From: Clostridiales bacterium | GTDB lineage: Bacteria; Bacillota; Limnochordia; Darwinibacteriales; B1SED10-159 | DNA: 42,805 nucleotides | Reading direction: 5' to 3' | Assembly: GCA_003551965.1 (NCBI GenBank) | Contig: PUOC01000063.1 | Location: 1-42,805, forward strand | Shown here: positions 3,341 to 38,391 of the stretch, one piece after another | How the letters are laid out: each line of letters begins with the position of its first letter | How positions within the stretch are numbered: the stretch's first letter is position 1 | Position numbers and translations under genes: made by a program | Notes under the pieces: generated by a model | Seen by the model: the letters and a program-made list of their open reading frames with translations, nothing else | The model's database searches: none | Told to the model about the DNA's origin: nothing

Positions 3341-4696
3341 TCAGTGGCCGGTCACCACAGCGTTAACCCACGTTTCCAGCATGCCCATCTCTGCCGCCGC
3401 ATGGAAGACGCTGTAGCGGGGACGGTAGTCCTTGCCATACAGCAGCGAGTTCGTTAGCAGTCCTTGATCAATGCCAATGTCCGCCGCTGCCTTTGGGGCC
3501 CCGAGGCGATCGTACATGGCCATGACCTCTTCCACCGAAGGCAAAAAGGCCAACTCCCTGCGGATGCAGTCCATATTGTCTCTCAGGGTCATTAGCCGCC
3601 GCTGCTGTTCTGGCCAGGATATGAGACCGTTGCCTTCCTGCTCCAGGAGCCGCGAACCGATGTGCTGCCCATAGGCGTTCCTAACCTGTTCATTGCGTAA
3701 TTCGTCCGTCAAGCGCTCTGCTTTCACCGCCTCCAAATCAACGCGATCCATGTCGGCTGCAAGAAAGTGCTCATAGAACTGCAGAACATACCCAGTGGCC
3801 ACACCGACTGCCGTACCGTGGCTTGGGTGGTCTTCGCCGCGCTGCAGTTTCATCATTTCCCAGTAATGGCCCATGTTGTGCTCCATGGAAGCTACGGGAC
3901 GCGTGTGACCAATGACCAGCACGGTCAACCCGGCCAAAATCAGGCCTTCGATCAGGCGCTGAACACCCTCGTCCGTACCGTTTCGAATATCGTCGATAGA
4001 ACTGGTGCAGCGCTGCAGTGCTTCGTCGATCAGCTCCACACACGCGGGACAGTAGGGTTCGTCATGGACAATGCGCCCCAGAATCCAATCGGCCTTAGCG
4101 ATGTACTTGCCAATCACATCGCCGAAACCGGAAATCATCATCTCCAGTGGTGCTGTCTTCATGACGTCGATGTCACACACCAATACCTCCGGGTAGCCGG
4201 CCGGCTTATTTACCTTTTGACTGCCGTGCAGAAGTGGTGCGATCACCGAAGTATACCCATCCATGGATGCAGCTGTGCCGACGCTGACAAAGGGCTTCCC
4301 AGCACACATGGCTGTATAGCGCGCCAAATCGGTTAACGTTCCGGAACCCACCGAAACAAAGAAATCTGTATCCTTTTCCATGGTGAGCAGAACCTCTCCA
4401 ATGGCGGCTTCATTTGGATGCAGGGGCTCGTCTCGCTCTAGATAGCACAGGGTAACGTTATACCCGGCGTCTCGCAGCAGCTTTTCAGCCCTCCGGCCCG
4501 CCAGGTCGTACACCACGTTGTCGGTAATCAACACCAGGTTGTTCCCCAAGCTGCGTCTGGAAATGTACTCCGCCAGTCTGCTGAGGATGCCGTTCCCGAT
4601 ATAGATATCCATATCCGGAATTCCGTGCTCCATGCCGCAGCCGCAGTCCACCTCCGTTAACACCAGTCTTTCGCCTTCATAGCTGAAACCTGCCAA
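3341..4696 (-). CDS. araM: sn-glycerol-1-phosphate dehydrogenase family protein (AraM/EgsA-like)
   Basis: A 451-residue member of the iron-containing alcohol dehydrogenase/glycerol-1-phosphate dehydrogenase superfamily. The nucleotide-binding glycine motif is GSGTLTDLARYTA (residues 117-129), followed by SMDGYTS (144-150). Likely metal ligands are Asp193 in GFGDVIGK, His273 in ASMEHNMGHYWEM and His293 in SHGTAVGVA. In Bacillus, AraM reduces dihydroxyacetone phosphate to glycerol-1-phosphate; several relatives in sugar clusters have unproven substrates. The start is TTG at 4696, set by AAGGAGG 7 bases upstream. The C-terminal extension of about 100 residues is usual for AraM. It is a single gene, preceded by a remnant MFS on its 3' side. 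The G1P role is inferred from the family; a different polyol phosphate substrate is possible. Confidence 0.85.
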   Translation of the reverse strand: MAGFSYEGERLVLTEVDCGCGMEHGIPDMDIYIGNGILSRLAEYISRRSLGNNLVLITDNVVYDLAGRRAEKLLRDAGYNVTLCYLERDEPLHPNEAAIGEVLLTMEKDTDFFVSVGSGTLTDLARYTAMCAGKPFVSVGTAASMDGYTSVIAPLLHGSQKVNKPAGYPEVLVCDIDVMKTAPLEMMISGFGDVIGKYIAKADWILGRIVHDEPYCPACVELIDEALQRCTSSIDDIRNGTDEGVQRLIEGLILAGLTVLVIGHTRPVASMEHNMGHYWEMMKLQRGEDHPSHGTAVGVATGYVLQFYEHFLAADMDRVDLEAVKAERLTDELRNEQVRNAYGQHIGSRLLEQEGNGLISWPEQQRRLMTLRDNMDCIRRELAFLPSVEEVMAMYDRLGAPKAAADIGIDQGLLTNSLLYGKDYRPRYSVFHAAAEMGMLETWVNAVVTGH

Positions 4697-4970: not shown

Positions 4971-7250
4971 TCATTGTTCCTGGGCATCGCCAATTACATT
5001 CAAGCGCAGCAGAACATCAAGCCTGCGGGAACCGTCGTCGGTTTCGACGGAAATGGGTATAGTGCGGTTGAATCCTTCAGCTGCGGTGAGGTCTTCGAAC
5101 GTAAGCGTGGCCCTGCCGTCGGAATCGATATTAGGATCCCAATGGGCTTCGTAGGAGATATCCTCAAAGTTTTCACCGGGCGCTTCGACCAAAGACACTG
5201 CCCAGGGAACCGTGCCGTCGTACGGCTCCCCGTCGCTGTCTTTGACCACAAACGATACCCAGCGAGATCCAAAGTCTTCCAAACGGATCTGGCCCACTTC
5301 TTGTACTATCCGGGCCAAAGTAACGTCCATATTTTGTATGTGCTGGCCCGGTCTCACGACCACAGGGTACTCCACGTGGGTTTCATAGCCATGGGCCCGG
5401 AAGGTCACTGTGTATTCACCGGGTTTCAAATTCGGCAGACGATACTCGCCCTCGTCGGCGGTTACAGTGGCCGTGGCCAAATCCTCGGTTCCGGTGCTGT
5501 CCCCTCGGTAGACAGCCAAACCCGCCCAGCGAATGCCTTCTTCGGTGGTGCCGTCGGTAATTGTGCCGCTGATGCTTCCAGGCTTCGGAGTGAGATCGAT
5601 TGGTACTGTTACATTGGCTCCTTCGACGACAAAATCGCCGTGCTTTTCTTCGTAACCGTCCAGCGAAGCCCGAAACCAATATGTGCCGCTGATCAGATCC
5701 CTGACAGCCATGCCGCCTATCCCAATGGCAACGGGTCTTCCTACCTGGCTGTCTTCATCCATGTCTTCCTCGTCGAAAATGGCCACCGAGGCGCCGGCCA
5801 ATTCCGGCGACGCTTCAAAGATCACCCCATGGGTCAGGGGCTCGTACTCGGCCGTGATCGTCATATCCTCTTCCACGGTATCCAATGCGTGATCCCAGCC
5901 GACGAAGCGGTGATCATAGCGCTGCGGATCGTCCGGCGCTTGGACGGCCTCTCCATGTTCCACCAAGCGTTCCGCCAAGACTGTACCGTCCCAGTCCTCG
6001 AAGATAACCGTGTATTCTTTAATTTCGTAGACAGCGGCAACCGTCAGATCGGCGGTGACGTCATCTAGCTCCGTGTCCCAACCCACAAAGGCATAGCCGT
6101 CCCGCTCCGGCTCAACCGGAGCCGGAGCAGCACTGCCATGATCCACTGCTTGCGTATCCAAAACTGTCCCATCATAATCTTCGAAGGTAACCGTATATTG
6201 CAGAATTTCGTATTCCGCCCGAATGGTGACGTCAGTGGTGACATCTTCGTAGTCTCCGTCCCAGGCCGTGAACTCGTAACCTTCGCGTTCAGGGACCTCC
6301 GGGAGCGACGCTGCAGCGCCGTGTTCCACTGTCTGCGCATCGATCACGGAACCATCCCAATCTTCAAAGGTCACGGTGTGCTCTTCCACTTCATACACAG
6401 CCGTCACCGTCAGATCCTCCGTAACAGAATCAAAGTCCGTGTCCCAGCCCACAAACTCATAGCCTTCCCGTTCCGGGTCTTCGGGTGCTTCCGCACCACT
6501 GCCATGATCCACAGTTTGCGTGTCCAGGACTGTCCCGTCATAGTCTTCAAAGACAACGGTGTATTGTATGACCTCATACTCGGCCTGAAGCGTAACATCC
6601 TCGGTGATGTCTTCGTACTCGCCGTCCCAACCCACGAACTCATAGCCGTCCCGTTCTGGCTCTTCAGGCAGGGATGCTGCAGCGCCGTGTTCCACAGTCT
6701 GGGTATCCAATACAGTTCCGTCATAGTCCTCGAAGGTCACCGTGTGCTCCTTCACCTCGTACTCGGCCGTCACTGTCACGTCGCCGGTAATAGAATCAAT
6801 GTCTGTATCCCAGCCGACAAACTCATAGCCTTCTCGTTCTGGTGCCTCCGGTGCCTCAGCAGCCGAACCGTGGGTGACCGTCAGGACTTCCAGGGTTTCG
6901 CCCTCCCAATCCTCAAACGAAACTTCATATTCCAGGGGTACAAACCGGGCAGTCACCGTCGCGTCTTCGCCGGGCATGGTGAAGTTGGTTTCCGGCCTGG
7001 CCGCATTACGCACCGATCCAGCCGTGGCTGACCACTGCTCAAATTCGTATCCTTCAGCGGGACTCGCGCTCAACTCGACGGTGTCACCCGATCGATGCTC
7101 GTGTTCGCCCACATCGGGGGAAATTGTCCCTTGCCCCTCCCGCTCTACGGTCAGAGTATAGGCGGGAAGAATAATGCCGAACGCGTACAGAAGCACAACA
7201 ATCACCGCAGCCAGCACCGCAGCGAACACCCATCGTCGTGAACCTGTCAT
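4971..7250 (-). CDS. Membrane-anchored surface protein with six InlB-type (Listeria-Bacteroides) repeats
   Basis: The start is the ATG at 7250, with AAGGAGG 10 bases upstream, giving 759 residues; an upstream open extension has no ribosome binding site. Residues 8-30 form one hydrophobic anchor with no cleavage site, so the bulk is exposed outside the cytoplasmic membrane. Residues 31-105 form a related repeat domain (GQGTISP...YEFEQW). Residues 106-471 are six repeats of 61 residues built on the pattern TFEDYDGTVLDTQTVEHG...PERDGYEFVGWD. Then come a PEGA-like beta domain (about 475-555), a carboxypeptidase-regulatory-like domain beginning GSISGTITDG (about 560-650) and an acidic C-terminal region. 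No LPXTG or S-layer motif is seen. The repeats alternate between two subtypes, a sign of duplication in pairs. Function is probably adhesion or surface scaffolding, by family only. The protein is very acidic. Confidence 0.8.
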   Translation of the reverse strand: MTGSRRWVFAAVLAAVIVVLLYAFGIILPAYTLTVEREGQGTISPDVGEHEHRSGDTVELSASPAEGYEFEQWSATAGSVRNAARPETNFTMPGEDATVTARFVPLEYEVSFEDWEGETLEVLTVTHGSAAEAPEAPEREGYEFVGWDTDIDSITGDVTVTAEYEVKEHTVTFEDYDGTVLDTQTVEHGAAASLPEEPERDGYEFVGWDGEYEDITEDVTLQAEYEVIQYTVVFEDYDGTVLDTQTVDHGSGAEAPEDPEREGYEFVGWDTDFDSVTEDLTVTAVYEVEEHTVTFEDWDGSVIDAQTVEHGAAASLPEVPEREGYEFTAWDGDYEDVTTDVTIRAEYEILQYTVTFEDYDGTVLDTQAVDHGSAAPAPVEPERDGYAFVGWDTELDDVTADLTVAAVYEIKEYTVIFEDWDGTVLAERLVEHGEAVQAPDDPQRYDHRFVGWDHALDTVEEDMTITAEYEPLTHGVIFEASPELAGASVAIFDEEDMDEDSQVGRPVAIGIGGMAVRDLISGTYWFRASLDGYEEKHGDFVVEGANVTVPIDLTPKPGSISGTITDGTTEEGIRWAGLAVYRGDSTGTEDLATATVTADEGEYRLPNLKPGEYTVTFRAHGYETHVEYPVVVRPGQHIQNMDVTLARIVQEVGQIRLEDFGSRWVSFVVKDSDGEPYDGTVPWAVSLVEAPGENFEDISYEAHWDPNIDSDGRATLTFEDLTAAEGFNRTIPISVETDDGSRRLDVLLRLNVIGDAQEQ

Positions 7251-8074
7251 GATACGAAGCACCTCCTTAGAATTTGGACCGTATCGGCGAGGCCAGCGCC
7301 CGTCTTCGATGCCACGTTTATGGGCCAGCCCCGACCTTACAGTGGTCTTACGAAGAAATATTCTGCACACGGCCGCTGTTTCCCTGTAAATTGCCGCCAA
7401 AACGCGCATTTATTTCTTGAATCGCACAGAGCCAGGTAGGCGCTGCAGGGGAAGCGTCCGCCGGTTGTAACCATACCCCTCATGGGGCAGCCCGTTGTGC
7501 CGCTCCGATTCTGCCGACGTCTAACCGATGGCATTGCCACCACAGCCGTACTCCTCCCGGGCATGATCCCGCTTCATATCGAATTGTTCGTACTGGAATC
7601 CGCAGTGTCACTTCCGCAGCTGCTCACAGCGGCCAAGCTGTAAGGCTGTGGCACTGTACTCCCGACGCTGCAAGCACTACTGCTGTCCAAGTTGTGCCCG
7701 GCCATCGCCGCCGGCGGGCAGTGCAGACTTTTTCTGCGCCATCGACCTAGATGTTGGGCTGGGGGCGATCGGCTGGGGAGTATGTCAAGATATCATGGGT
7801 TTCCCCTGGGTCTTTTTCTCATCGGGCCTACGTGCCTAAAACGGTGCGGTTGTGTGCCTAGCCGTATTTTCACATCCACCACCGGTCCGTCTTTGGAGAC
7901 CCGGCCGGCATGAAGGTACTGGCTATCCCCGCTGCAGCGATCCATGGGCATCGTCGGGGCCGAAGAAGATCCCGGCTGCACAATGGCGCCTCTTGTCTGC
8001 GGCTCAAGAAGGCTGCTGCACCGGTTCCTTCCAAAACAGATACCCGTGTGCCGACCAGACACTGTTCTCTGGTG
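7251..8074. other. Gene-free stretch of about 820 bases
   Basis: No credible gene was found on either strand. The minus strand from 8062 to 7793 is open, and part of it reads like protein (SQYLHAGRVSKDGPVVDVKIRL), but it has no ribosome binding site and was not recognised; it may be a relic. Positions 7773-7790 (GGGGAGTATGTCAAGATA) resemble the conserved subterminal sequence of some IS200/IS605 elements, but no transposase or TnpB relic flanks it. The promoter of the InlB-repeat gene should lie near 7270-7350. Confidence 0.35.
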
Positions 8075-27846: not shown

Positions 27847-28512
27847 CTAAAAGCCCCGGATCTGCCCCCGCCAAGGGGGATTTTTGCCTGCAGTGTACTC
27901 GTCGACACCGGGTCCGCCCAGCTGTCGGAGCCGGCGGATGCCGTAGACATAGGTAAACACCAGCAGAGCCACAGTCACCGGCCAGCCCAACACGATATTG
28001 GCCCATGCCAACGCCGTGACATCGCCCCTGAGATACATGACCAGCTGTACGATCAGCCGCACAAGGAAAAACCCTGCCCAGACCACCGTAACATCGCCGT
28101 AGGCAGGCCGCACATCGTCGCGCCAAAACCATGCCAGCGGCCAGCCGCGGGTTAGATGGCTGACCCAAGCGATCAACGGACGGCCCATCACCAGACTGAT
28201 AACCGCCAAAAGCAAAACACCAGCGCTCGTAATCAACCCGGGAACAAAGTAATTCGCTGCACTGCGCGTCAAAAGCGCCAACAGTGATGCAGCGCCCGCT
28301 CCCGCCAAACCACCCAGTGCATAGTACCAAACCTGTCTCCGCAAAAGGCGGATGCCCCCAAAAACCGCCGCCAAGCCCAGGGAAGACAGAACGGCAGGCG
28401 CTAAACCAACGCTGGTGGATACAAGCGCAAACACCAGCGGCGGAAGCAGCGCATCCAGCGTTTTTCCAGACACCACGGAACGAAACTCTTCATAGAGCTC
28501 CCGCAGCTGCAT
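27847..28512 (-). CDS. DUF3159 family membrane protein
   Basis: A 221-residue polytopic protein with about six helices: two from residue 20 to 55, two from 65 to 110, and two from 140 to 190. A DUF3159-like signature is present, MGRPLIAWVSHLTRGWPLAW, followed by FLVRLIVQLVMYLRGD. DUF3159 is a family of unknown function related to intracellular septation-like (IspZ-type) membrane proteins. The start is ATG at 28512 with GAGGTGG upstream. It lies 47 bases after the DUF1475 gene and is the last gene of the DAK2-DegV operon. Its membership in a lipid-linked operon is the only hint of function. Confidence 0.7.
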   Translation of the reverse strand: MQLRELYEEFRSVVSGKTLDALLPPLVFALVSTSVGLAPAVLSSLGLAAVFGGIRLLRRQVWYYALGGLAGAGAASLLALLTRSAANYFVPGLITSAGVLLLAVISLVMGRPLIAWVSHLTRGWPLAWFWRDDVRPAYGDVTVVWAGFFLVRLIVQLVMYLRGDVTALAWANIVLGWPVTVALLVFTYVYGIRRLRQLGGPGVDEYTAGKNPPWRGQIRGF

Positions 28513-28559
28513 GACAAAACCACCTCGGTTGCAGTATCAAGACCCACAGCGGCTGCGGA

Positions 28560-28907
28560 TCATGCATTTTTTACCAGTGAATCCTTTTTGGCGCCCAAGA
28601 AAAAGGTCAGCCAATCCCCGCGACTGTAGTGCAGTGCGGCAAGAATGTAAACACTGGCGGTAAAGAAGCCGAGCACCATCATGAAGACGATCCAAACCGC
28701 CGCTGCAGCAGGATGGGCTTCCCGAAAACCGATCCAAAGGGAAAACAAAATAAACCCGACGTACAGATCCACCAGAGACACAATACCCCAAGGATTCTGC
28801 AGCAGTTCGCCGCCGTCCTGGCCAAAGTTTCCATTCACGAAACCGTTGAAAATAACCGCTGCCATGGCGATGGCACCTATCCACGCTGCAATCTTCGCAA
28901 GCCTCAA
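28560..28907 (-). CDS. DUF1475 family small membrane protein
   Basis: A 115-residue protein from a TTG at 28907, chosen because GGGAGGTG lies 6 bases upstream; the longer frame from 28922 would place the ribosome binding site inside the gene. It has four helices, with the DUF1475-like motif NPWGIVSLVDLYVGFILFSLW (residues about 38-58) and SRGDWLTFFLGAKK at the end. The function is unknown. In many proteobacteria DUF1475, DUF2177 and DUF1295 genes cluster with cyclopropane fatty acid synthase and ChrR regulators; that is from general knowledge, and neither is present here. It is fourth in a five-gene operon. Confidence 0.75.
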   Translation of the reverse strand: MRLAKIAAWIGAIAMAAVIFNGFVNGNFGQDGGELLQNPWGIVSLVDLYVGFILFSLWIGFREAHPAAAAVWIVFMMVLGFFTASVYILAALHYSRGDWLTFFLGAKKDSLVKNA

Positions 28908-28965
28908 GGCCGCACCTCCCAAACGCGCTCTGCTGCGGACGGTGGAAAATCCACCGGAATATCAC

Positions 28966-29370
28966 TCAGCCGCCGATGCGCTGCATGATAAAAAAGCTGA
29001 TTGTTGCCGTCGATGCGGCCAGAAACGAACCCCAAACCAGATCCACCAAGGTCACCAGCCATGGCCAGTCCTTCAAGGTTGCAAGGTTGGTCAGATCATA
29101 GGTACCGTAGGTCATAAGCCCGAACAGGGCGCCGACTCCCAGTGCATAAGTCCAGCTATCCCGTTGCAAAGCGGGATCAAGGACAAAAAAGAGCACGCCG
29201 CCGATAAACAGCGCATAGAAGACAATGGCTGCAGTCCAGTTCACATTGGTTTTCATAAAGCGGCCGAGCTGCTGGCGGTAGAACTTGCGCGCTGCCACAC
29301 CCAGCCAGAGGATGTCGATGACAAAAAAAACGACAAAGGCCACAACATACATAAGCAGGTAATAACCCAT
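28966..29370 (-). CDS. DUF2177 family small membrane protein
   Basis: A 134-residue protein beginning [24 protein letters not shown] at the ATG at 29370, which overlaps the stop codon of the DUF1295 gene by one base (TGATG), so translation is coupled. A longer open frame upstream overlaps DUF1295 and is not real. Four helices are predicted. DUF2177 signatures are FVIDILWLGVAARKFY, IGGVLFFVLDPAL and FGLMTYGTYDLTNLATLKDWP. The function is unknown; the strict conservation of Asp-Leu-Trp and Tyr-Asp-Leu-Thr-Asn suggests an enzyme or transporter rather than a structural protein. Confidence 0.82.
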   Translation of the reverse strand: MGYYLLMYVVAFVVFFVIDILWLGVAARKFYRQQLGRFMKTNVNWTAAIVFYALFIGGVLFFVLDPALQRDSWTYALGVGALFGLMTYGTYDLTNLATLKDWPWLVTLVDLVWGSFLAASTATISFFIMQRIGG

Positions 29371-30164
29371 CAGCCACCGTCCTTCGAATTGCGGTTTTTC
29401 TTCGGAAACCAGGGAATAAATGGACTGGTTTCCCGCGCATACTGCTGAAACTCCGGATTGTCCCGGTAGCGTTTTTCCAGCAGAGGTACCCCGGACACAA
29501 ACACCAAGAGTCCGGTGATCATGAGCGGACTGAAAATCAGGGCCCATCCGTAGGGCGCCGATGCGGCCACCAAATAAATCCCCCACCACATTACGGCTTC
29601 GCCGAAGTAGTTGGGATGCCGAGTATACCGCCACAGCCCCTGCTTCATGATGCGGCCCTTGTGGGCCGGGTCGGCCTTGAATTGTTTGAGCTGGTAATCG
29701 CCGACACTTTCAAAGACAAAACCAAAAAGCCACACCGCTGCACCAACATAATCCAGAACATGGAGGCCAGTCGGACTAGCCCAGTGCACAACCATGATCG
29801 GCAGCGCGATGATATACATCAATGTTCCCTGCAAAAGATAGACGTACACAAACGCCTTCAGTGCCGGAAAACGGCTGCCCCATTTCTTGCGCATCTGGAC
29901 ATAGCGATAGTCTTCTGGTTTCCCAAGATTGCGTTTCGCCAGGTAGTACGACAGACGTCCGCCCCAAATCACAACCAGAGCCGTAATCAGCCAAGCCCGG
30001 GCCGGACTGTCGGGAAGCCGAATCAATGAATACAGGGCAATGAGCACATATCCCAATCCCCAGCCGATGTCCACAATGGAATTGTTTTTCAGGCGCTGCC
30101 CAACGGCGAACATGATGGTGAAAAACGCCAACAGCACCAGGGCTATTTCTGCATACAGGGGCAC
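29370..30164 (-). CDS. DUF1295 / steroid 5-alpha-reductase-like membrane enzyme
   Basis: A 264-residue polytopic protein with start GTG at 30164, preceded by GAAGGG. It has about seven helices and ends in the domain shared by isoprenylcysteine methyltransferase and steroid 5-alpha-reductase: [21 protein letters not shown] followed by VMWWGIYL (residues about 188-215). The RHPNYFGE motif binds the cofactor (SAM or NADPH) in relatives. The N-terminal part [20 protein letters not shown] matches DUF1295. The likely role is methylation or reduction of a lipid within the membrane; which of these is open. It starts 18 bases after the DAK2-DegV gene and overlaps the DUF2177 gene. Confidence 0.85.
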
Positions 30165-30182
30165 TCGCTTTCATTCCCTTCG

Positions 30183-31964
30183 CTATTCGGTGATCAACGC
30201 AATGCCCGTGGAGCCGATGCCGGCACTCAAGGCCGTGATCGCTGATACGTCCATGATATACTTCGGTTCCCGGCCGGTCATTTCGGTAAAAATGCGTGCA
30301 TACTCCTGGGCTCGCTCCGGTGCGCTGGCATGGACGACACAGTAATCTGCTATGCCCTGCTGCTGGAATATGGCCTGCACAGTCTTTCGAATCAACCTGG
30401 TGTTACCTTTGGTGCTAAATGCTTTGCCGAATATGCTGCCCTTTCCCTTCTCGTCCAAGGAGACCACGGGTTTTAGGTTGAGCAGTTTGGCAGCCACCGC
30501 CAAGGTTGAGCTGATGCGCCCTGAGCGCAGCATGTACTTCAAGGTATGGACACTGACATAAATCTTCGATTTGGCAATCCACTCTTCTATCCTGGCCATG
30601 ACTTCGTCGTGGCCGCGGCCCTCGGCAATGGCTTCGGCGGCCTTGACCGCCACCAAGCCCTGGGCACCGGAATTGAGCTTTGAATCAATCACATCGATGC
30701 GGGCACCCTGTTCTTGGAAGCGTTTCGCTGCATTGACAAAGGTGCTGAAGGTTCCGCTGAGTCCCTGCGACACCGAAAGCACGATGATGGAATCATAGTG
30801 CTTGCTGAGAAAGGAAAACACCTGCTCCACCGATCTGGCATTGGGCTGGGACGAGGTCGGATACTCGTCCATGGCGTCGAGCAATGTGTAGATGGTGCCC
30901 GATGTTATGGTTAAGCGGTCAACATAGGCGCTTCCTTCCATCATGACATTCAGAGGAACCATGTGAATCTGTTGCTGATCCACGATCTTCTGGGGAATGT
31001 CAGCAATGGAGTCAGTGACTAAGGCTACCGAGGACTGGCGCCGGTGAATGACGTCGCTCTGGCGCTGCATGTCATCCACTTTCTGCTGGGTAATGGTTCC
31101 CGCCTTCCGAAGCCGCAGCATCAAGGTTTCAGGCTGATTGGTGTGCATGTGAACGCGGACCTTTGTGTCACCGCCGGCGACGATCAGCGAGTCTCCCAGG
31201 TCTTGCAAACTGTCTTTGATCGCGTCAGTGGAAAGCCCATTCCCGGTGATCAGAGCTTCCGTGCAGTATCGATGGGCGATGTCCTCATCCACGGCCGCAT
31301 AGGCTTCATCGAGATCAAATTCAAAGGCTTCGTCAGCCTCCACGGCGGCCAAGGCACGTCCGTCCTTGACGAAATTGTAGAACCCTTCAAGAAAATGGAA
31401 AAAGCCCTTTGCCCCCGAATCGACCACTGCAGCCCTTTTCAGCACCTGCAGCTTGTTGGGAGTGTCCTCAAGGGAAGTTAATGCCGTGTCCAAAGATTGG
31501 GAAAACAGCTCTTCAAAGTCCTTAGCCCGCCCATGCAAGTACGTCAGGGAATTAGCCCAATCTTCCATCAAAGTCAAAATGGTTCCTTCCGTTGGATTGG
31601 CCACGGCCTCGTAGGCATAGGGGACGGCCTTTTTCACTGCCGCTGCAAAGTCCTGCACAGATATGTCCTTGACATCTCCAATGGCCGTACTAAAACCGCG
31701 CACAAATTGCGCAAAGATGATGCCGGAATTGCCCCGGGCACCCACCAATGCCGCTTCGGAAATGGATTCCAAGGTCGCCTTCGTCGTTTCGGCAATGGTG
31801 GCTTCATCCACAATGGCCCGCATGGTGAATACAAGATTGCTGCCCGTATCGCCGTCTGCAATGGGAAAAACATTGATCCGGTTGAGCATGTCCTTCTGCT
31901 CGACTACCGCGTTAGCCCCGGCCACAAATCCATAGTACAATGCCCGTCCGTCAAGTTGTTTCAT
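30183..31964 (-). CDS. DAK2-DegV fusion, likely fatty acid kinase (FakA-FakB on one chain)
   Basis: A 593-residue protein with start ATG at 31964 (AAAGGGTG upstream). Residues 1-205 are a DAK2 kinase domain with the Mg-ATP motif DGDTGSN (37-43), GARGNSG (75-81) and VDSGAKGF (181-188). Residues 210-300 are the FakA middle domain, with the zinc ligands of FakA kept: Cys234 in YCTEALITG and His272/His274 in VHMHT. Residues 312-593 are a complete DegV (FakB) domain with VTDSIADIP, the fatty-acid-binding TSSQP and LSVSQGLSGTF motifs, and LRSGRIS. FakA phosphorylates fatty acid bound to FakB, so one chain would hold both kinase and substrate carrier, making acyl phosphate from exogenous or recycled fatty acids. 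It heads an operon of four membrane proteins. Confidence 0.9.
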   Translation of the reverse strand: MKQLDGRALYYGFVAGANAVVEQKDMLNRINVFPIADGDTGSNLVFTMRAIVDEATIAETTKATLESISEAALVGARGNSGIIFAQFVRGFSTAIGDVKDISVQDFAAAVKKAVPYAYEAVANPTEGTILTLMEDWANSLTYLHGRAKDFEELFSQSLDTALTSLEDTPNKLQVLKRAAVVDSGAKGFFHFLEGFYNFVKDGRALAAVEADEAFEFDLDEAYAAVDEDIAHRYCTEALITGNGLSTDAIKDSLQDLGDSLIVAGGDTKVRVHMHTNQPETLMLRLRKAGTITQQKVDDMQRQSDVIHRRQSSVALVTDSIADIPQKIVDQQQIHMVPLNVMMEGSAYVDRLTITSGTIYTLLDAMDEYPTSSQPNARSVEQVFSFLSKHYDSIIVLSVSQGLSGTFSTFVNAAKRFQEQGARIDVIDSKLNSGAQGLVAVKAAEAIAEGRGHDEVMARIEEWIAKSKIYVSVHTLKYMLRSGRISSTLAVAAKLLNLKPVVSLDEKGKGSIFGKAFSTKGNTRLIRKTVQAIFQQQGIADYCVVHASAPERAQEYARIFTEMTGREPKYIMDVSAITALSAGIGSTGIALITE

Positions 31965-32331
31965 TCTGGTTCACCCTTTCTTTTCGCGGCGCCTGGGGAC
32001 ACCGATAGTCCAGAATCGCTGTGGACAAAAAATAATCAATAACTATTCCTATATATAGCTTAGCCGTTGGGATGGGCATCGTCAAGCATTTTTCGAGTAA
32101 TTGCCGGCTAAACTTCTCCCGCACTCCCCGGCCCCGCGGACCCCAACGGCCGTTTGCGCGCCCTCACTGCCGAAACGGACGCTACAGACACCCGTTGGCC
32201 AACGCGCTTCCGCGATCTCTGCGCGAGGACAATGAATGCCCGTTATAATAACTTTTGGGTTCAAGGCAAAGCTTCTGTGGAACCATCTACGCTCGACGCA
32301 ATCGTTCCTTAGGCTCCACATAGGTCAGCCC
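31965..32331. other. Intergenic stretch upstream of the lipid operon
   Basis: About 370 bases without a gene. It holds the promoter of the DAK2-DegV operon and, at its right, the 3' end of the transcript of the CPBP gene; no clear terminator was found for the latter. Confidence 0.45.
32057..32085 (-). promoter_or_regulatory. Candidate sigma-A promoter of the DAK2-DegV operon
   Basis: On the minus strand TTGACG (32085-32080) is followed, after 17 bases, by TAAGCT (32062-32057), which leads into the AT-rich TATATATAGGAATA. The -35 box is good (5 of 6 to TTGACA) and the -10 box weak. The start codon is about 90 bases downstream. Confidence 0.5.
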
Positions 32332-33156
32332 TCATTCGGCTTCGGGCATGAGAACGCCGGTCACGCTTCCTTTGGGGGTGAGCATTCTTTCACGGTTGAA
32401 CAGTACGATGAGGACCGCCCCCAAGGAAAAAACGACGGTGTCCCAAGGCTGGGCATTGGGCCATATCGGGTTGTTGATCTGAAAGTGGAACAAAGCAGCA
32501 ATCAGAATACTGCCCCGGGAAGCGTTGAATATGGCAGTCATAATGACCGACAGCGCCACAACGCCTGCGAAGAACGATACGAACATCCACTCGTAGTGCG
32601 GTGTTCCCCCGATAAAAAACGCGGGCAGGTGCCACACCGCCCAGACCACGCCAATGATCAGGCTAGAAGCCAGAGGAGTCAAGCGGCGCTGCAGCAGCGG
32701 GAGGGCCACACCCCGCCAGCCAAACTCTTCCATGGGCCCTAGAACCAGCATCAAGAGCAGCGCAGGCAACACGCCGTACCATGGTTCGAAGCCAAATGGA
32801 TCGGTAATCGTACCTGCGGCCGCTGCAGCTATGTAATAAATGAGTGGAATGCCCAACACCAAGAATGACCACCACCTAGGCGACATCCTCCACAGGGTCA
32901 GGCGGCGGAGGTAGCTGCCTAGTCCATGGAAGCCGTAATAGCGGGCAACCAATATAACGGCTGCAAAAGCGGGTCCATAGACCGCCAAGACATACAGCGG
33001 ATTCGTATAGCCCATTTCACCGAAAAGGGCTGCAACCTGGTCTGCAAATAATATCATGACGGCGGCCAGTCCCCAGGTTAATCCGAAGGTAAGGCCAAGA
33101 AACGGAACCAATGTGCGTACAGTCATTTTCCTCGAAGTGTCTGCGCTTGTACTCAT
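32332..33156 (-). CDS. CPBP family intramembrane metalloprotease
   Basis: The start is the ATG at 33156 (GGGAGG upstream), giving 274 residues and about eight helices. The three CPBP (Abi, Rce1-like) motifs are present: EEFGWRG (motif 1, with the catalytic Glu-Glu and Arg), VVWAVWHLPAFF (motif 2, with the His), and ILIAALFHFQINN (motif 3, His and Asn). Members are intramembrane endopeptidases; in bacteria they are known for bacteriocin self-immunity and processing of small peptides, but most are uncharacterised. No bacteriocin or peptide gene was found beside it. The gene appears to be monocistronic. Confidence 0.88.
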   Translation of the reverse strand: MSTSADTSRKMTVRTLVPFLGLTFGLTWGLAAVMILFADQVAALFGEMGYTNPLYVLAVYGPAFAAVILVARYYGFHGLGSYLRRLTLWRMSPRWWSFLVLGIPLIYYIAAAAAGTITDPFGFEPWYGVLPALLLMLVLGPMEEFGWRGVALPLLQRRLTPLASSLIIGVVWAVWHLPAFFIGGTPHYEWMFVSFFAGVVALSVIMTAIFNASRGSILIAALFHFQINNPIWPNAQPWDTVVFSLGAVLIVLFNRERMLTPKGSVTGVLMPEAE

Positions 33157-33882
33157 ATAATTTCCTCCCATATGCACATGAAATCCACTGCCAATTAGAC
33201 ACACAAACATACCGGGCACGACAGCCGCCTTTTGCGCCCATGGTCATGCAGCTCCGGCCGACGCTCCCGCTGGGCCCACAAACATACATCATGATCGGCC
33301 AGGGCCATAGACGGGTGCCGGCACATTCCTCCCTCCGTCTGCAGTCGTATACTGTGAGAACTCTGCTAGGAACGCGTCCGGTGCCGCCGGGGCAAAGGTC
33401 ATTTTTCCCGTTCTTCTTGCAGGAGAGAGTTCCTTCATTCCCAGCAAAACTTTAACATAATTATTCACAACGCATGATTCCGAAAGCCCCGCCGCAGATC
33501 TTTGCCTGGCCCATTTTGTCACGCCATCCCCGGAAGTCCTTTCTGTGTATGGGAATGCCGACCTGCATGGACCCGAGGCCACCCCGTCCGATTTTTACCC
33601 TGACCGAGCTTCAGCCGCAGTGAAACAAAAGCCAGAACCGCCGCTGCACGGGGGCAGACGACGGCTCTGGCTTCGAAACCGCAGTGGCGCTACTTTCTCT
33701 TCGCCCCCTGAACTGTGGCAGAAATTTGTCAGCAGGGCAGCCGTGGCAGGACGAAGTTCCAAGGGATAGCGTCAGCGTCCTCCAAGAAGCGCTTCCCATT
33801 TCCGGCAGGAGGATGCATTGCCCATACCGCTGCTTCATTCACAGACACGCTTCTGCGTTGACCGGGAGCGCCGCTGACCGGT
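33157..33882. other. Gene-free stretch of about 725 bases
   Basis: No supported gene. The region contains the CPBP promoter (right of 33156, not resolved), a terminator-like hairpin at 33622-33673, and no recognisable relic. Open frames here are short, Arg/Cys/Pro-rich and without ribosome binding sites. Confidence 0.4.
33622..33673 (-). terminator. Rho-independent terminator, probably of the lipoprotein gene
   Basis: On the minus strand AAGCCAGAGCCG (33673-33662) pairs with CGGTTCTGGCTT (33640-33629), one pair being G-U, and is followed by TTGTTTC. It lies about 210 bases after the stop of the lipoprotein gene (33883), which is its only upstream gene. Confidence 0.6.
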
Positions 33883-34740: not shown

Positions 34741-35547
34741 TCAGTCACGCTCCATGGTTCTTCTTGGATACACCCCCCTGCGCTGAATGGTGTACCGCTG
34801 ATCAAACCGGTCAATCATCTGCAGCGAGAAGCTTGTGCCCAATCGCTTCACCCACATGGAGCCTTCGTGGGCTGCGATGAAGAGGAAGAACAAGGCTGCA
34901 AAGACGAAATCCATGGAATGATCGGGCAGCCGAGCTTCGGCATACAGGCCGAGGTCCGTGAAGAAGGCGGCACCGAAAACCACGAGAAAAAGCGTGCTCG
35001 CAGCATACCGCAGCGTGCGCCAAGGCGCACATTGGTATGTCTTCAGAACTTCTGCCTTCTCCAACATGATATGGTCGCCGGCTTCTTCATAGATGCGCAC
35101 CGTAACAGCCAAAAGATCCGGCAGGACATACCTGCGGTAGTAGGCATAACCGAGAATATCAAATGCCATGAATAAAAACATAAAAGCAATTCGTTGGAAA
35201 ACCGTCTCTGCAAAGCTCATCATAATAAAGAGCACCATCAGGCCCGCAATGATAGCTATGATCTGGGCATTGGCCGATACCTTCCGCTGGGTCACCAACG
35301 TCATTTCGTGCAAGTTGATGTCCATGGATACACCGAACACCCAGGACAGATAGAGAACAACGATGGTGAATCTGGAAATGAGATCCGGAGGAAGGCTCTG
35401 CAGAATCGCCCCGAAAATTTCCCCTCTGGCACTGATGTACCCCACACCCAAGGCCAGCAGAGCAGCGGAAATCTGAACGATCAGGCGCCAATACCGGGCA
35501 GATGCCAGCATCAATCGCTGATCCCTATGGGCATCGATTTTATCCAA
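34741..35547 (-). CDS. Polytopic membrane protein of unknown family
   Basis: The start is taken as the TTG at 35547, because GGAGG lies 9 bases upstream; this gives 268 residues. Six hydrophobic segments are visible: near residues 20-40, 55-75, 90-115 (IIAIIAGLMVLFIMMSF), 118-140, 185-205 and 215-235. Between helices 4 and 5 is a soluble loop of about 45 residues (VRIYEEAGDHIMLEKAEVLKTYQ). The C-terminus is basic. I do not recognise the family. It is followed by the LppM-like lipoprotein gene. The ribosome binding site lies inside a palindrome. Confidence 0.75.
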   Translation of the reverse strand: MDKIDAHRDQRLMLASARYWRLIVQISAALLALGVGYISARGEIFGAILQSLPPDLISRFTIVVLYLSWVFGVSMDINLHEMTLVTQRKVSANAQIIAIIAGLMVLFIMMSFAETVFQRIAFMFLFMAFDILGYAYYRRYVLPDLLAVTVRIYEEAGDHIMLEKAEVLKTYQCAPWRTLRYAASTLFLVVFGAAFFTDLGLYAEARLPDHSMDFVFAALFFLFIAAHEGSMWVKRLGTSFSLQMIDRFDQRYTIQRRGVYPRRTMERD

Positions 35548-35548
35548 C

Positions 35549-35562
35549 GGGAGGCACCTCCC
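35549..35562 (-). promoter_or_regulatory. Palindromic ribosome binding site ahead of a TTG start
   Basis: On the minus strand GGGAGG-TG-CCTCCC ends one base before the TTG at 35547. The Shine-Dalgarno core can pair with the bases next to the start codon, which may lower translation of the polytopic protein. Confidence 0.45.
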
Positions 35563-35629
35563 CAGCAGGGTGAACCAACACTGGAACGGCAAGGCGCAAC
35601 CAAACCCGGCTACGCTGGCGCTTCAGTAT

Positions 35630-36182: not shown

Positions 36183-36923
36183 ATGCTGCAAGTAAGAAAT
36201 TTGTCTGTCTCGTATGGTGCAAAGAAAGCTGTCGACCGCCTCAGTCTGCGACTGAAGCCCGGGGAGGCCTTAGGACTGCTCGGGGCCAACGGCGCCGGGA
36301 AATCCTCTGCCATCACGGGGATGCTGGGAGTTCAGCACAGCCAGTATGATGAACTAACGGTGTTTGGGAAATCACCCATTCACCATCGTAGAAACGTATT
36401 CGAAGCTGTAGGTGTTCAGTTTCAAGAAACAAACTTCCCGGATCGACTCACTGTTCAAGAAGCATGCCGCCAGTGGGCAGCGTTGTACAGAGAAACAGCG
36501 GATCTGGAAGAGCTCCTGCATTCGTTCGGACTCGCCGGCCGTGAAAGACAGGTTGTCAATTCGCTCTCGGGCGGTGAGCGGCAGCGCCTGGCGGTCCTAT
36601 TAGCCCTCATCCACAAGCCGAAGCTTGTCTTTCTCGATGAACTTACGACAGGTTTGGACACCAAGGCAAGGAAAGCACTCTGGAATAGGCTGCTGCTCAT
36701 GAAAGCGAACGGCCTCGGCATGGTGCTTACATCCCACTATATGGACGAAGTCGAGATTCTCTGTGACCGTGTTGTGATACTCCGGCAGGGGAGGACCGTG
36801 TTTCAAGGAACCGTGACGGACGCAATGCGCCGCAGTGGGAAGACATCCTTCGAAGATGCCTATTTAAAGTTCTCAGGGGAAAAGGAGGAAGATTGGAATG
36901 CGATCATTAATCACTCTAGTTAA
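36183..36923 (+). CDS. ABC-2 type exporter, ATP-binding protein
   Basis: A 246-residue ATPase with start ATG at 36183 (AGGAGGGG upstream). Walker A is GANGAGKSS (about residues 34-42), the Q-loop is VQFQETNFP, the signature is LSGGERQRL (about 119-127), Walker B is LVFLDELTTGLD (about 139-150) and the switch His is in TSHYMDE. It is the drug/antibiotic exporter type (CcmA/NodI group) that pairs with a six-helix ABC-2 permease. It overlaps that permease gene by 26 bases. The C-terminus ends in a short tail after FEDAYLKFSGE, the usual end for such ATPases. Confidence 0.92.
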   Translation: MLQVRNLSVSYGAKKAVDRLSLRLKPGEALGLLGANGAGKSSAITGMLGVQHSQYDELTVFGKSPIHHRRNVFEAVGVQFQETNFPDRLTVQEACRQWAALYRETADLEELLHSFGLAGRERQVVNSLSGGERQRLAVLLALIHKPKLVFLDELTTGLDTKARKALWNRLLLMKANGLGMVLTSHYMDEVEILCDRVVILRQGRTVFQGTVTDAMRRSGKTSFEDAYLKFSGEKEEDWNAIINHSS

Positions 36924-37632
36924 CATCGAAGGACGCCTTCTTTGGAAGGGCATGGACCTCTTCATTTTCGGGTTCTGCTTTCCGGTGCTGCTGGCCGCCC
37001 TATTTGGCTATCTGCTAAGCCACGACGCCTCTGGCGGACCTTCGGATTTTCAGCTGTCCTTTGCGGCCGTCACTACCATCGGCATTCTGGCTACCGGCGT
37101 CATGGGTTTTCCACTAACTATAGCCGATTATCGCCATCGCCGGATTCTGCAGCGATTCCAGGTCACACCGGTGCCACCGGCCTACCTGCTCGCCGCCCAG
37201 GGTCTGATTCAGCTGGCGGCTGCGGTATTGTCCTTTACGGCCGTGGCCGCAGTCTATCATGTCTGGTTCGATTTCCGACTGGATGGCTCTTGGACGCTGT
37301 TCTTGCTGGCATATGCCTTCGTCACGCTGGCCATGTACAGTCTCGGCATGCTGATCGGAAGTTTAGCACCTAATCAAAAGGCAGCCAATCTTTGGAGTTC
37401 CTTGGCCTACTTTGCGATGCTTCTGTTTTCAGGCGCGACGATTCCTTACAATATTATGCCAGAGACTCTGCAGCGGCTGATGAATGTCCTGCCGTTATCG
37501 CACGGCATCCATCTGCTGCGGCACGCCATTGCAGGGGATCCCATGATCGATGCCGCGGTTCACGCTGCGGTTTTGATTGGCTGTTTTGCTCTCGGTACAG
37601 CCGCAACGGCGAAATACTTCCGATGGAGGTAG
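36898..37632 (+). CDS. ABC-2 type exporter, permease
   Basis: A 244-residue membrane protein with six helices. The start ATG at 36898 has AAGGAGG 9 bases upstream and lies within the ATPase gene. The ABC-2 features are a first helix after a short amphipathic N-terminus, a YRHRRILQRFQVTPVPP cytoplasmic loop (residues about 79-95), and FSGATIPYNIMPETLQRLMNVLP followed by LSHGIHLLRH near the C-terminus, which is the classic ABC-2 signature. With the ATPase it forms a dimeric exporter for an unknown substrate such as a drug or peptide. The regulator follows directly after the stop codon. Confidence 0.9.
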   Translation: MRSLITLVNIEGRLLWKGMDLFIFGFCFPVLLAALFGYLLSHDASGGPSDFQLSFAAVTTIGILATGVMGFPLTIADYRHRRILQRFQVTPVPPAYLLAAQGLIQLAAAVLSFTAVAAVYHVWFDFRLDGSWTLFLLAYAFVTLAMYSLGMLIGSLAPNQKAANLWSSLAYFAMLLFSGATIPYNIMPETLQRLMNVLPLSHGIHLLRHAIAGDPMIDAAVHAAVLIGCFALGTAATAKYFRWR

Positions 37633-38391
37633 GTGGACGAGTTGTACAAGACAAAGGAAATTGCTGACCTAGTCGGCATCCATCCGAATACTGTACGAAT
37701 TTATGAGGACTGGGGATTTATCTCCCCAGTCCCTCGACAACGAAACAATTACCGCCGTTATTCCGAGCAGCACCTATTCCAGCTAAAACTGGCGCGCAGG
37801 CTCTTTCGCTGCGAGATCGTGCAGGGCAATATGCGGCACAGGGCGCGGCAGATCGTCTACGCCTCGGGCGCAAAGGACTATGAGCGGGCCCGCCGTTTGA
37901 CCGAGCAATACATAGCCCATCTGCAATGGGAATACGACCACGCTGTATCGGCGGCCAGTGCGGTCCAGCGGTGGTTGAACAAAGAGCCAGCACCATCGTC
38001 GGCCGCCCATTCCCGCAAGCAAGCGGCACAGATATTGGGCACAACACCAGAGACTATCCGCAATTGGGAACGAAATGGGCTGATCCGCATTCCCCGATCA
38101 CAAAGTGGCCACAGAGTGTATGGCAGCCCTGAACTGGAGCGCCTGCAGGTAATCCGGGCACTGCGGGCCGCCCATTACTCGCTCACTTCGATACTGCGTC
38201 TGTTGAATCGGATGGATCAGCCCCATCCGGATGCGATCAAAACCCTCAACACCCCGGCGCCTCAGGAAGAGATCCTGTCGGTTGCCGACCAACTGGTGCA
38301 TTCCCTTGCAACAGCAAAGGCCGATGCCAACGAAGTTCTGTCTATGCTGACAAGCAGCTTTCCAGAATCCGGGAATCCTGAATTTTCCTAG
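37633..38391 (+). CDS. MerR-family regulator with two DNA-binding domains
   Basis: A 252-residue protein that holds two MerR-type winged helices on one chain. The first (residues about 5-60) reads YKTKEIADLVGIHPNTVRIYE, then a wing with NNYRRYSEQHLFQLKLARRL. The second (about 127-195) reads SRKQAAQILGTTPETIRNWE, then HRVYGSPELERLQVIRALR. Between them is a helical stretch (about 75-115), possibly a dimerising coil. The start is GTG at 37633, directly after the permease stop; a TTG at 37642, nearer the usual family start, has AGGTGG at better spacing and is equally possible. It lies in one operon with the ABC-2 exporter, so it probably activates the exporter in response to its substrate. Confidence 0.85.
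   Translation: MDELYKTKEIADLVGIHPNTVRIYEDWGFISPVPRQRNNYRRYSEQHLFQLKLARRLFRCEIVQGNMRHRARQIVYASGAKDYERARRLTEQYIAHLQWEYDHAVSAASAVQRWLNKEPAPSSAAHSRKQAAQILGTTPETIRNWERNGLIRIPRSQSGHRVYGSPELERLQVIRALRAAHYSLTSILRLLNRMDQPHPDAIKTLNTPAPQEEILSVADQLVHSLATAKADANEVLSMLTSSFPESGNPEFS

Follow-up and report, generated by a model that had tools for sequence, protein, structure and literature searches.

A predicted one-piece fatty acid kinase and a DUF1295 membrane protein form a conserved gene module in Bacillota, possibly linked to light and oxidative stress

Contig PUOC01000063.1 of a Clostridiales bacterium (assembly GCA_003551965.1), analysed here over a window of 42,805 nucleotides to which all coordinates refer, carries on its minus strand a gene for a DAK2-DegV fusion protein, followed by genes for four membrane proteins (DUF1295, DUF2177, DUF1475-like and DUF3159). 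The question raised by this locus is whether these five genes make up one functional system and what a fatty acid kinase of one piece might do in it. The linkage of the fusion with DUF1295, and usually also with DUF2177, is more than chance. We see about even chances that the operon belongs to a conserved Bacillota module of a one-piece fatty acid kinase with DUF1295 and usually DUF2177, which under stress would reduce a modified or oxidised acyl chain and activate a fatty acid for the membrane. The module is a variant of the known FakA/FakB system within an apparently undescribed, conserved partnership, as no description was found in the open-access literature, subscription journals lying outside the search.

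Recurrence of the module

A sample of 299 genomes spread over the phylum, which was searched with the whole fusion and is unbiased for fusions, contained a full-length fusion in eight genomes (the window's own, G202, G204, G255, G292, G315, G345 and G349; genomes are denoted by G numbers). The first-pass annotation had set beforehand, as the test of a functional tie, whether the fusion and the DUF genes lie apart in related genomes. They do not lie apart: in all eight, the fusion is immediately followed downstream by DUF1295. The same adjacency occurs in G002 and G003, as well as in G413, G422, G450 and G452, the last four having been found via DUF matches and thus not being an unbiased sample of fusions. 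An independent search of 398 genomes with DUF1295 gave 14 strong matches, 12 of which stand beside a fusion; the two others (G275 and G359) are both divergent, with 27-31% identity. In a plasmid collection, the full fusion is present in six records, from Listeria, Enterococcus raffinosus and Acetoanaerobium, and both DUF1295 and DUF2177 adjoin it in 6/6, the gene order in the three genera being DUF2177-fusion-DUF1295.

The fusion and DUF1295 remain adjacent at protein identities of 35-46%, in nine families or more and in both Bacilli and Clostridia, with different genes flanking them. DUF2177 and DUF1295 co-occur in 12 of the 398 genomes (p=4e-20; the adjacency counts and Fisher values treat genomes as independent), which is a nearly complete co-occurrence. 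In most lineages DUF2177 is located within the operon or a few genes away, and in G292, G315, G345, G349 and G422 it is found elsewhere in the genome. Because of this adjacency and co-occurrence across the samples, the fusion-DUF1295 pair is regarded as the core of the module and DUF2177 as its near-constant companion.

The whole five-gene order is repeated in G002, with protein identities of 74/71/71/68/62%, and G001 has four of the five genes before its contig ends, while G003, a member of another family, keeps the fusion-DUF1295 pair. Homologues of the DUF1475-like gene were found at the same place in G001, G002, G315 and G349, and DUF3159 only in G001 (66% identity) and G002 (62% identity). 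The idea of a five-gene system, put forward in the first-pass annotation, did not hold, since DUF3159 is seen only in the window's own family and, outside the class, DUF1475 occurs in the module in two genomes only. A scan of the genome contigs with the DUF1295 alignment matched only the three nearest relatives, the partial rows of the alignment having left one usable pattern.

In genome G410, where DUF1295 was not found, a 127-amino-acid open reading frame (L119:9652-10035) combines a stretch similar to the N-terminal part of the fusion with a fragment of DUF2177; a photolyase gene lies some 4 kb away. This suggests a decayed copy, and a former adjacency of the fusion and DUF2177.

The kinase fusion

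The fusion (593 amino acids, 30183..31964, minus strand) is encoded by a single open reading frame, in which Pfam identifies Dak2 (6.5e-37), FakA-like_M (3.5e-20) and DegV (6.8e-62) domains. Its matches in PDB are FakA (7w7h, 8vip, 7rm7) and DegV/FakB (3fys, 4x9x), and the DegV part scores above the cut-off of TIGR00762. The residues known to be essential in FakA of Staphylococcus aureus (D38/D40, C240, H282 and H284; PMC9136124) have counterparts in D37/D39 of the DGDTG motif, C234, H272 and H274, which are kept in 17 of the 17 fusions examined; by analogy with the family, the fusion probably phosphorylates fatty acids. Like the FakA/FakB systems of Firmicutes (S. aureus, Enterococcus faecalis, Streptococcus pneumoniae), it combines a DAK2 domain carrying DGDTG, a Cys-His-His middle domain and a fatty-acid-binding DegV domain, but here the kinase and the binding domain are on one chain, belong to a separate clade and always stand beside DUF1295. 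The C-terminal domain of S. aureus FakA docks FakB, and in the fusion the DegV domain takes that position. No Pfam match to the FakA-like_C domain was found in the window's fusion, and its scores against the curated models FakA (194.7 of 975 bits) and YloV (280.8 of 396.1 bits) are below cut-off; therefore, it is a Fak-like variant rather than a canonical FakA.

In a tree built from the first 300 residues of 17 fusions and 22 ordinary FakA proteins, all fusions are on one side of a 100/100 branch, apart from the ordinary FakA. The own genome and its relatives also encode ordinary FakA and separate FakBs, and since module genomes carry these as well, the fusion is probably an extra, dedicated kinase and not a housekeeping one. 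It appears to represent a second, dedicated class of fatty acid kinase.

DUF1295 and DUF2177

The DUF1295 gene (29370..30164, minus strand; Pfam 2.6e-78) encodes a protein of 264 amino acids, which is predicted to be a membrane-embedded NADPH-dependent C=C reductase. Whether it acts as a methylase or a reductase had been left undecided by the first-pass annotation. A profile of 24 members, searched against PDB, matched only NADPH-dependent C=C reductases, namely PbSRD5A (7c83, 2.4e-5), human SRD5A2 (7bw1, 2e-4) and two delta-14 sterol reductases (4quv, 9l5r), and no ICMT structure was among the matches. The NADPH ligands of SRD5A2 include D164, N193 and E197 (PMC7815742), with which D156, N185 and E189 of DUF1295 align; D156 and N185 are invariant in the 24 aligned sequences, and position 189 is E or D among the sequences listed. 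Both the profile and the ligands favour a reductase rather than a methylase. The protein thus resembles the steroid 5-alpha and delta-14 sterol reductase superfamily in its C-terminal NADPH site, with a weak but consistent profile match, whereas its N-terminal half, the substrate-reading part, does not align. An AlphaFold model made from a shallow alignment had a pLDDT of 52, and the fold search with it was uninformative.

DUF2177 (134 amino acids, 28966..29370, minus strand; Pfam 6.7e-47) is a predicted four-helix membrane protein according to an AlphaFold model of low confidence (shallow alignment, pLDDT 60). Its profile had no match in PDB. We regard DUF2177, the DUF1475-like protein and DUF3159 as putative membrane accessories.

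Light and oxidative-stress neighbourhood

The genes in Listeria innocua follow the order photolyase, DUF2177, fusion, DUF1295, and this locus corresponds by synteny to lmo0588-lmo0591. There, lmo0588 is a photolyase (PMC9087598), and lmo0591 (DUF1295, by synteny) is sigma-B dependent (PMC2248587) and listed in a three-gene transcription unit, LMRG_00271-00273 (PMC6737072). The lmo0588-lmo0591 locus (photolyase, DUF2177, DegV, DUF1295) has the same core genes as the window, by synteny with L. innocua, but differs in the first position of DUF2177, in the adjacent photolyase and in having neither DUF1475 nor DUF3159. No biochemistry for these genes was reported in the papers found.

Photolyase is rare in the sample (28/398), being present in 7 of 12 module genomes and in 21 of 386 others (p=2.5e-6); at the level of families the enrichment gives p ~5e-4, with the family total approximated at 140. 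Further genes near the module or its DUF2177 encode TspO-like proteins (G003, G345 and G450, the latter two by BLAST similarity only), pyrimidine-dimer glycosylase (G204 and G345), MsrA and MsrB (G450) and a Rieske oxygenase (G413). Heliorhodopsin is found in five of 16 module genomes; its gene adjoins DUF2177 in G345 and lies 2.5 kb upstream of the fusion in G001, which belongs to the window's own family. DUF2177 has already been listed as a frequent neighbour of heliorhodopsin in a published survey (PMC11109279). Taken together, the neighbours suggest light or oxidative stress as the setting of the module. Both this setting and the occurrence of the module in Listeria add to what had been proposed for the locus before, and they would tie heliorhodopsin and photolyase neighbourhoods of Gram-positive bacteria to lipid chemistry, an open question for heliorhodopsin.

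Relation to furan fatty acid operons

In Actinobacteria and Proteobacteria, DUF1295 and DUF2177 genes are located together with UfaD-like, DUF1365/UfaO and CFA-type genes, ChrR, sigma factors and photolyase. Furan fatty acids are the product of UfaO, which belongs to the ChrR regulon (PMC7380195), and in Chlamydomonas the genes of DUF1295, DUF2177, DUF1365 and two CFA proteins need SAK1 for induction by singlet oxygen (PMC4067076). The Bacillota module is similar to these furan fatty acid/ChrR operons (UfaD-UfaO-UfaM) in having DUF1295, often DUF2177, and photolyase and TspO nearby, but it contains the kinase fusion instead.

DUF1365/UfaO was found in only one of the 16 module genomes and not in that of the window, and synthesis of furan fatty acids by the module was rejected because 15/16 do not have it. 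A CFA synthase as part of the module was also rejected for the window's genome, where the gene is on another contig among unrelated genes.

A 697-amino-acid frame of G349 (L142, G349:C121:3446-5368) contains both DUF1365 (UfaO) and a CFA-type methylase and is located behind a UfaD-like gene; it represents a set of furan-fatty-acid type in a Bacillota bin with 6% contamination.

Proposed mechanism and alternatives

According to the mechanism proposed here, the DegV (FakB) half of the fusion would hold a free fatty acid, probably a modified or oxidised one, and the DAK2/FakA-M half would phosphorylate it to acyl-phosphate, the activated form able to re-enter phospholipid synthesis. Within the membrane, DUF1295 would use NADPH to reduce a C=C bond of the acyl chain, either step possibly coming first, and the reduced chain would be put back into the membrane. 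Since light or oxidative stress is the likely setting, the substrate is likely to be a modified, unsaturated or oxidised acyl chain. The earlier proposal that the operon activates, modifies or moves fatty acids can be kept in part: the kinase is tied to DUF1295 and DUF2177, probably in acyl modification, and for moving no support was found. A narrower version can be offered tentatively, namely a light- or oxidant-linked lipid repair in Bacillota, in which DUF1295 would reduce damaged chains and the one-piece kinase would re-activate them, as a Gram-positive counterpart of the ChrR/furan-fatty-acid response that sometimes stands beside heliorhodopsin.

Several points weigh against the stress-linked acyl reductase module. 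The match of DUF1295 to reductases is weak and limited to the C-terminal half; of the five NADPH ligands in the alignment, two are replaced (R171 by K and N160 by E), and the catalytic Q-E-Y motif of SRD5A could not be placed, as the N-terminal half does not align. The Pfam models PEMT (29.8 bits, cut-off 25) and ICMT (25.3 bits, cut-off 24) also match DUF1295 just above their thresholds. In the DegV half, near the C-terminus, the column of H545, probably the counterpart of the carboxylate-binding His of FakB, is occupied by Tyr in G202, G255 and G204 and by Phe in G413, which may point to another substrate in this subclade. As to the setting, 5/12 module genomes gave no photolyase match, many hosts of the module are anaerobes or sediment dwellers, and the heliorhodopsin count of 5/16 is a raw one. 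A sigma-B consensus was not found beyond chance either in the window or upstream of the Listeria genes. Finally, the activities of all the module proteins are predictions from sequence.

Some of these points would suit another explanation, essentially that of the first-pass annotation, in which the module serves ordinary membrane adaptation (fluidity, salt, cold) by activating and modifying fatty acids, DUF1295 being either a reductase or an S-adenosylmethionine-dependent methyltransferase acting on acyl chains. The linkage and the kinase residues fit it equally, several hosts are without a photolyase match, and close relatives of the genome come from soda-lake sediment. A methylase is the less likely assignment for DUF1295 but keeps some probability, because SRD5A2 and ICMT have a common fold with overlapping cofactor sites (PMC7591894) and because of the weak PEMT and ICMT matches. 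The PDB profile search, giving reductases only, argues against the methylase variant, and the photolyase enrichment, the photolyase adjacency in Listeria and the TspO, MsrA/B, pyrimidine-dimer glycosylase and heliorhodopsin neighbours argue against ordinary adaptation as a whole, which we consider rather unlikely.

Less probable still is that the fusion phosphorylates a lipophilic carboxylic acid of another kind, such as a terpenoid, an apocarotenoid or some other exogenous acid, and DUF1295 reduces the same compound; the module would then produce or dispose of a small molecule resembling a lipid, instead of handling membrane fatty acids. Pockets of the FakB type are known as a family to bind varied hydrophobic acids, the relatives of known structure nearest to DUF1295 have steroid substrates, the fusion clade is deep and separate from FakA, and a tocopherol-cyclase-like gene is a neighbour in G349; against this, DUF1295 is tied elsewhere to the fatty-acyl modification genes UfaD, DUF1365/UfaO and CFA (PMC7380195). 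That the genes are neighbours without any functional tie, held together by recent shared ancestry or co-transfer, is very improbable, for although DUF1475 and DUF3159 are linked in only part of the set and the order around the core varies, the persistence of the fusion-DUF1295 adjacency at such low identity in so many families already contradicts it for this pair.

The stress-linked module provides a testable context for two widespread membrane families, DUF1295 and DUF2177. As it is present in the tractable L. innocua, and Lactococcus lactis has both DUF families, a role in membrane stress is directly testable.

Structure of the operon

The gene order and the gaps of 18, -1, 58 and 47 bases given in the first-pass annotation were confirmed by Pfam and by the gaps recomputed from the start codons. 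The fusion is followed after 18 bases by the GTG start of DUF1295 at 30164, and the ATG of DUF2177 at 29370 shares one base with the stop codon of DUF1295 (TGATG), giving the gap of -1. After 58 bases, a small membrane protein gene (28560..28907, minus strand) begins with TTG at 28907, preceded by GGGAGG. Its Pfam match to DUF1475 is genuine but incomplete (3.6e-8; 33.9 bits, cut-off 22.3; positions 134-217 of 236), and as only the C-terminal third of the model is covered, the label DUF1475-like is safer. The last gene, 47 bases further, encodes the DUF3159 membrane protein (221 amino acids, 27847..28512, minus strand, ATG at 28512; Pfam 9.8e-35).

This five-gene block is isolated, with about 370 bases to the upstream gene and about 500 bases to the next downstream gene. 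The upstream gene, on the same strand, encodes a CAAX/Rce1-like membrane protease (32332-33219), which was not found beside the module in the relatives. The gap between it and the fusion (31965..32331, minus strand) must hold the promoter; a TTGACG...TATATAT pattern can be seen there by eye and was not picked up by the promoter scan, which had no candidate for the start of the operon.

Other genes of the window

About 3 kb upstream of the operon, a gene on the minus strand (34741-35592) encodes a membrane protein with a sub-threshold match to Steroid_dh (E=0.01). A protein with two MerR DNA-binding matches (37633-38391, plus strand) adjoins an ABC-2 type exporter (36183-37632). The window also encodes an iron-containing alcohol dehydrogenase (3341-4696, minus strand) assigned to Fe-ADH_2, a family to which glycerol-1-phosphate dehydrogenases belong, and an 812-amino-acid protein (4971-7409, minus strand) that has numerous InlB-type (Flg_new) repeats as well as a carboxypeptidase-regulatory-like domain.

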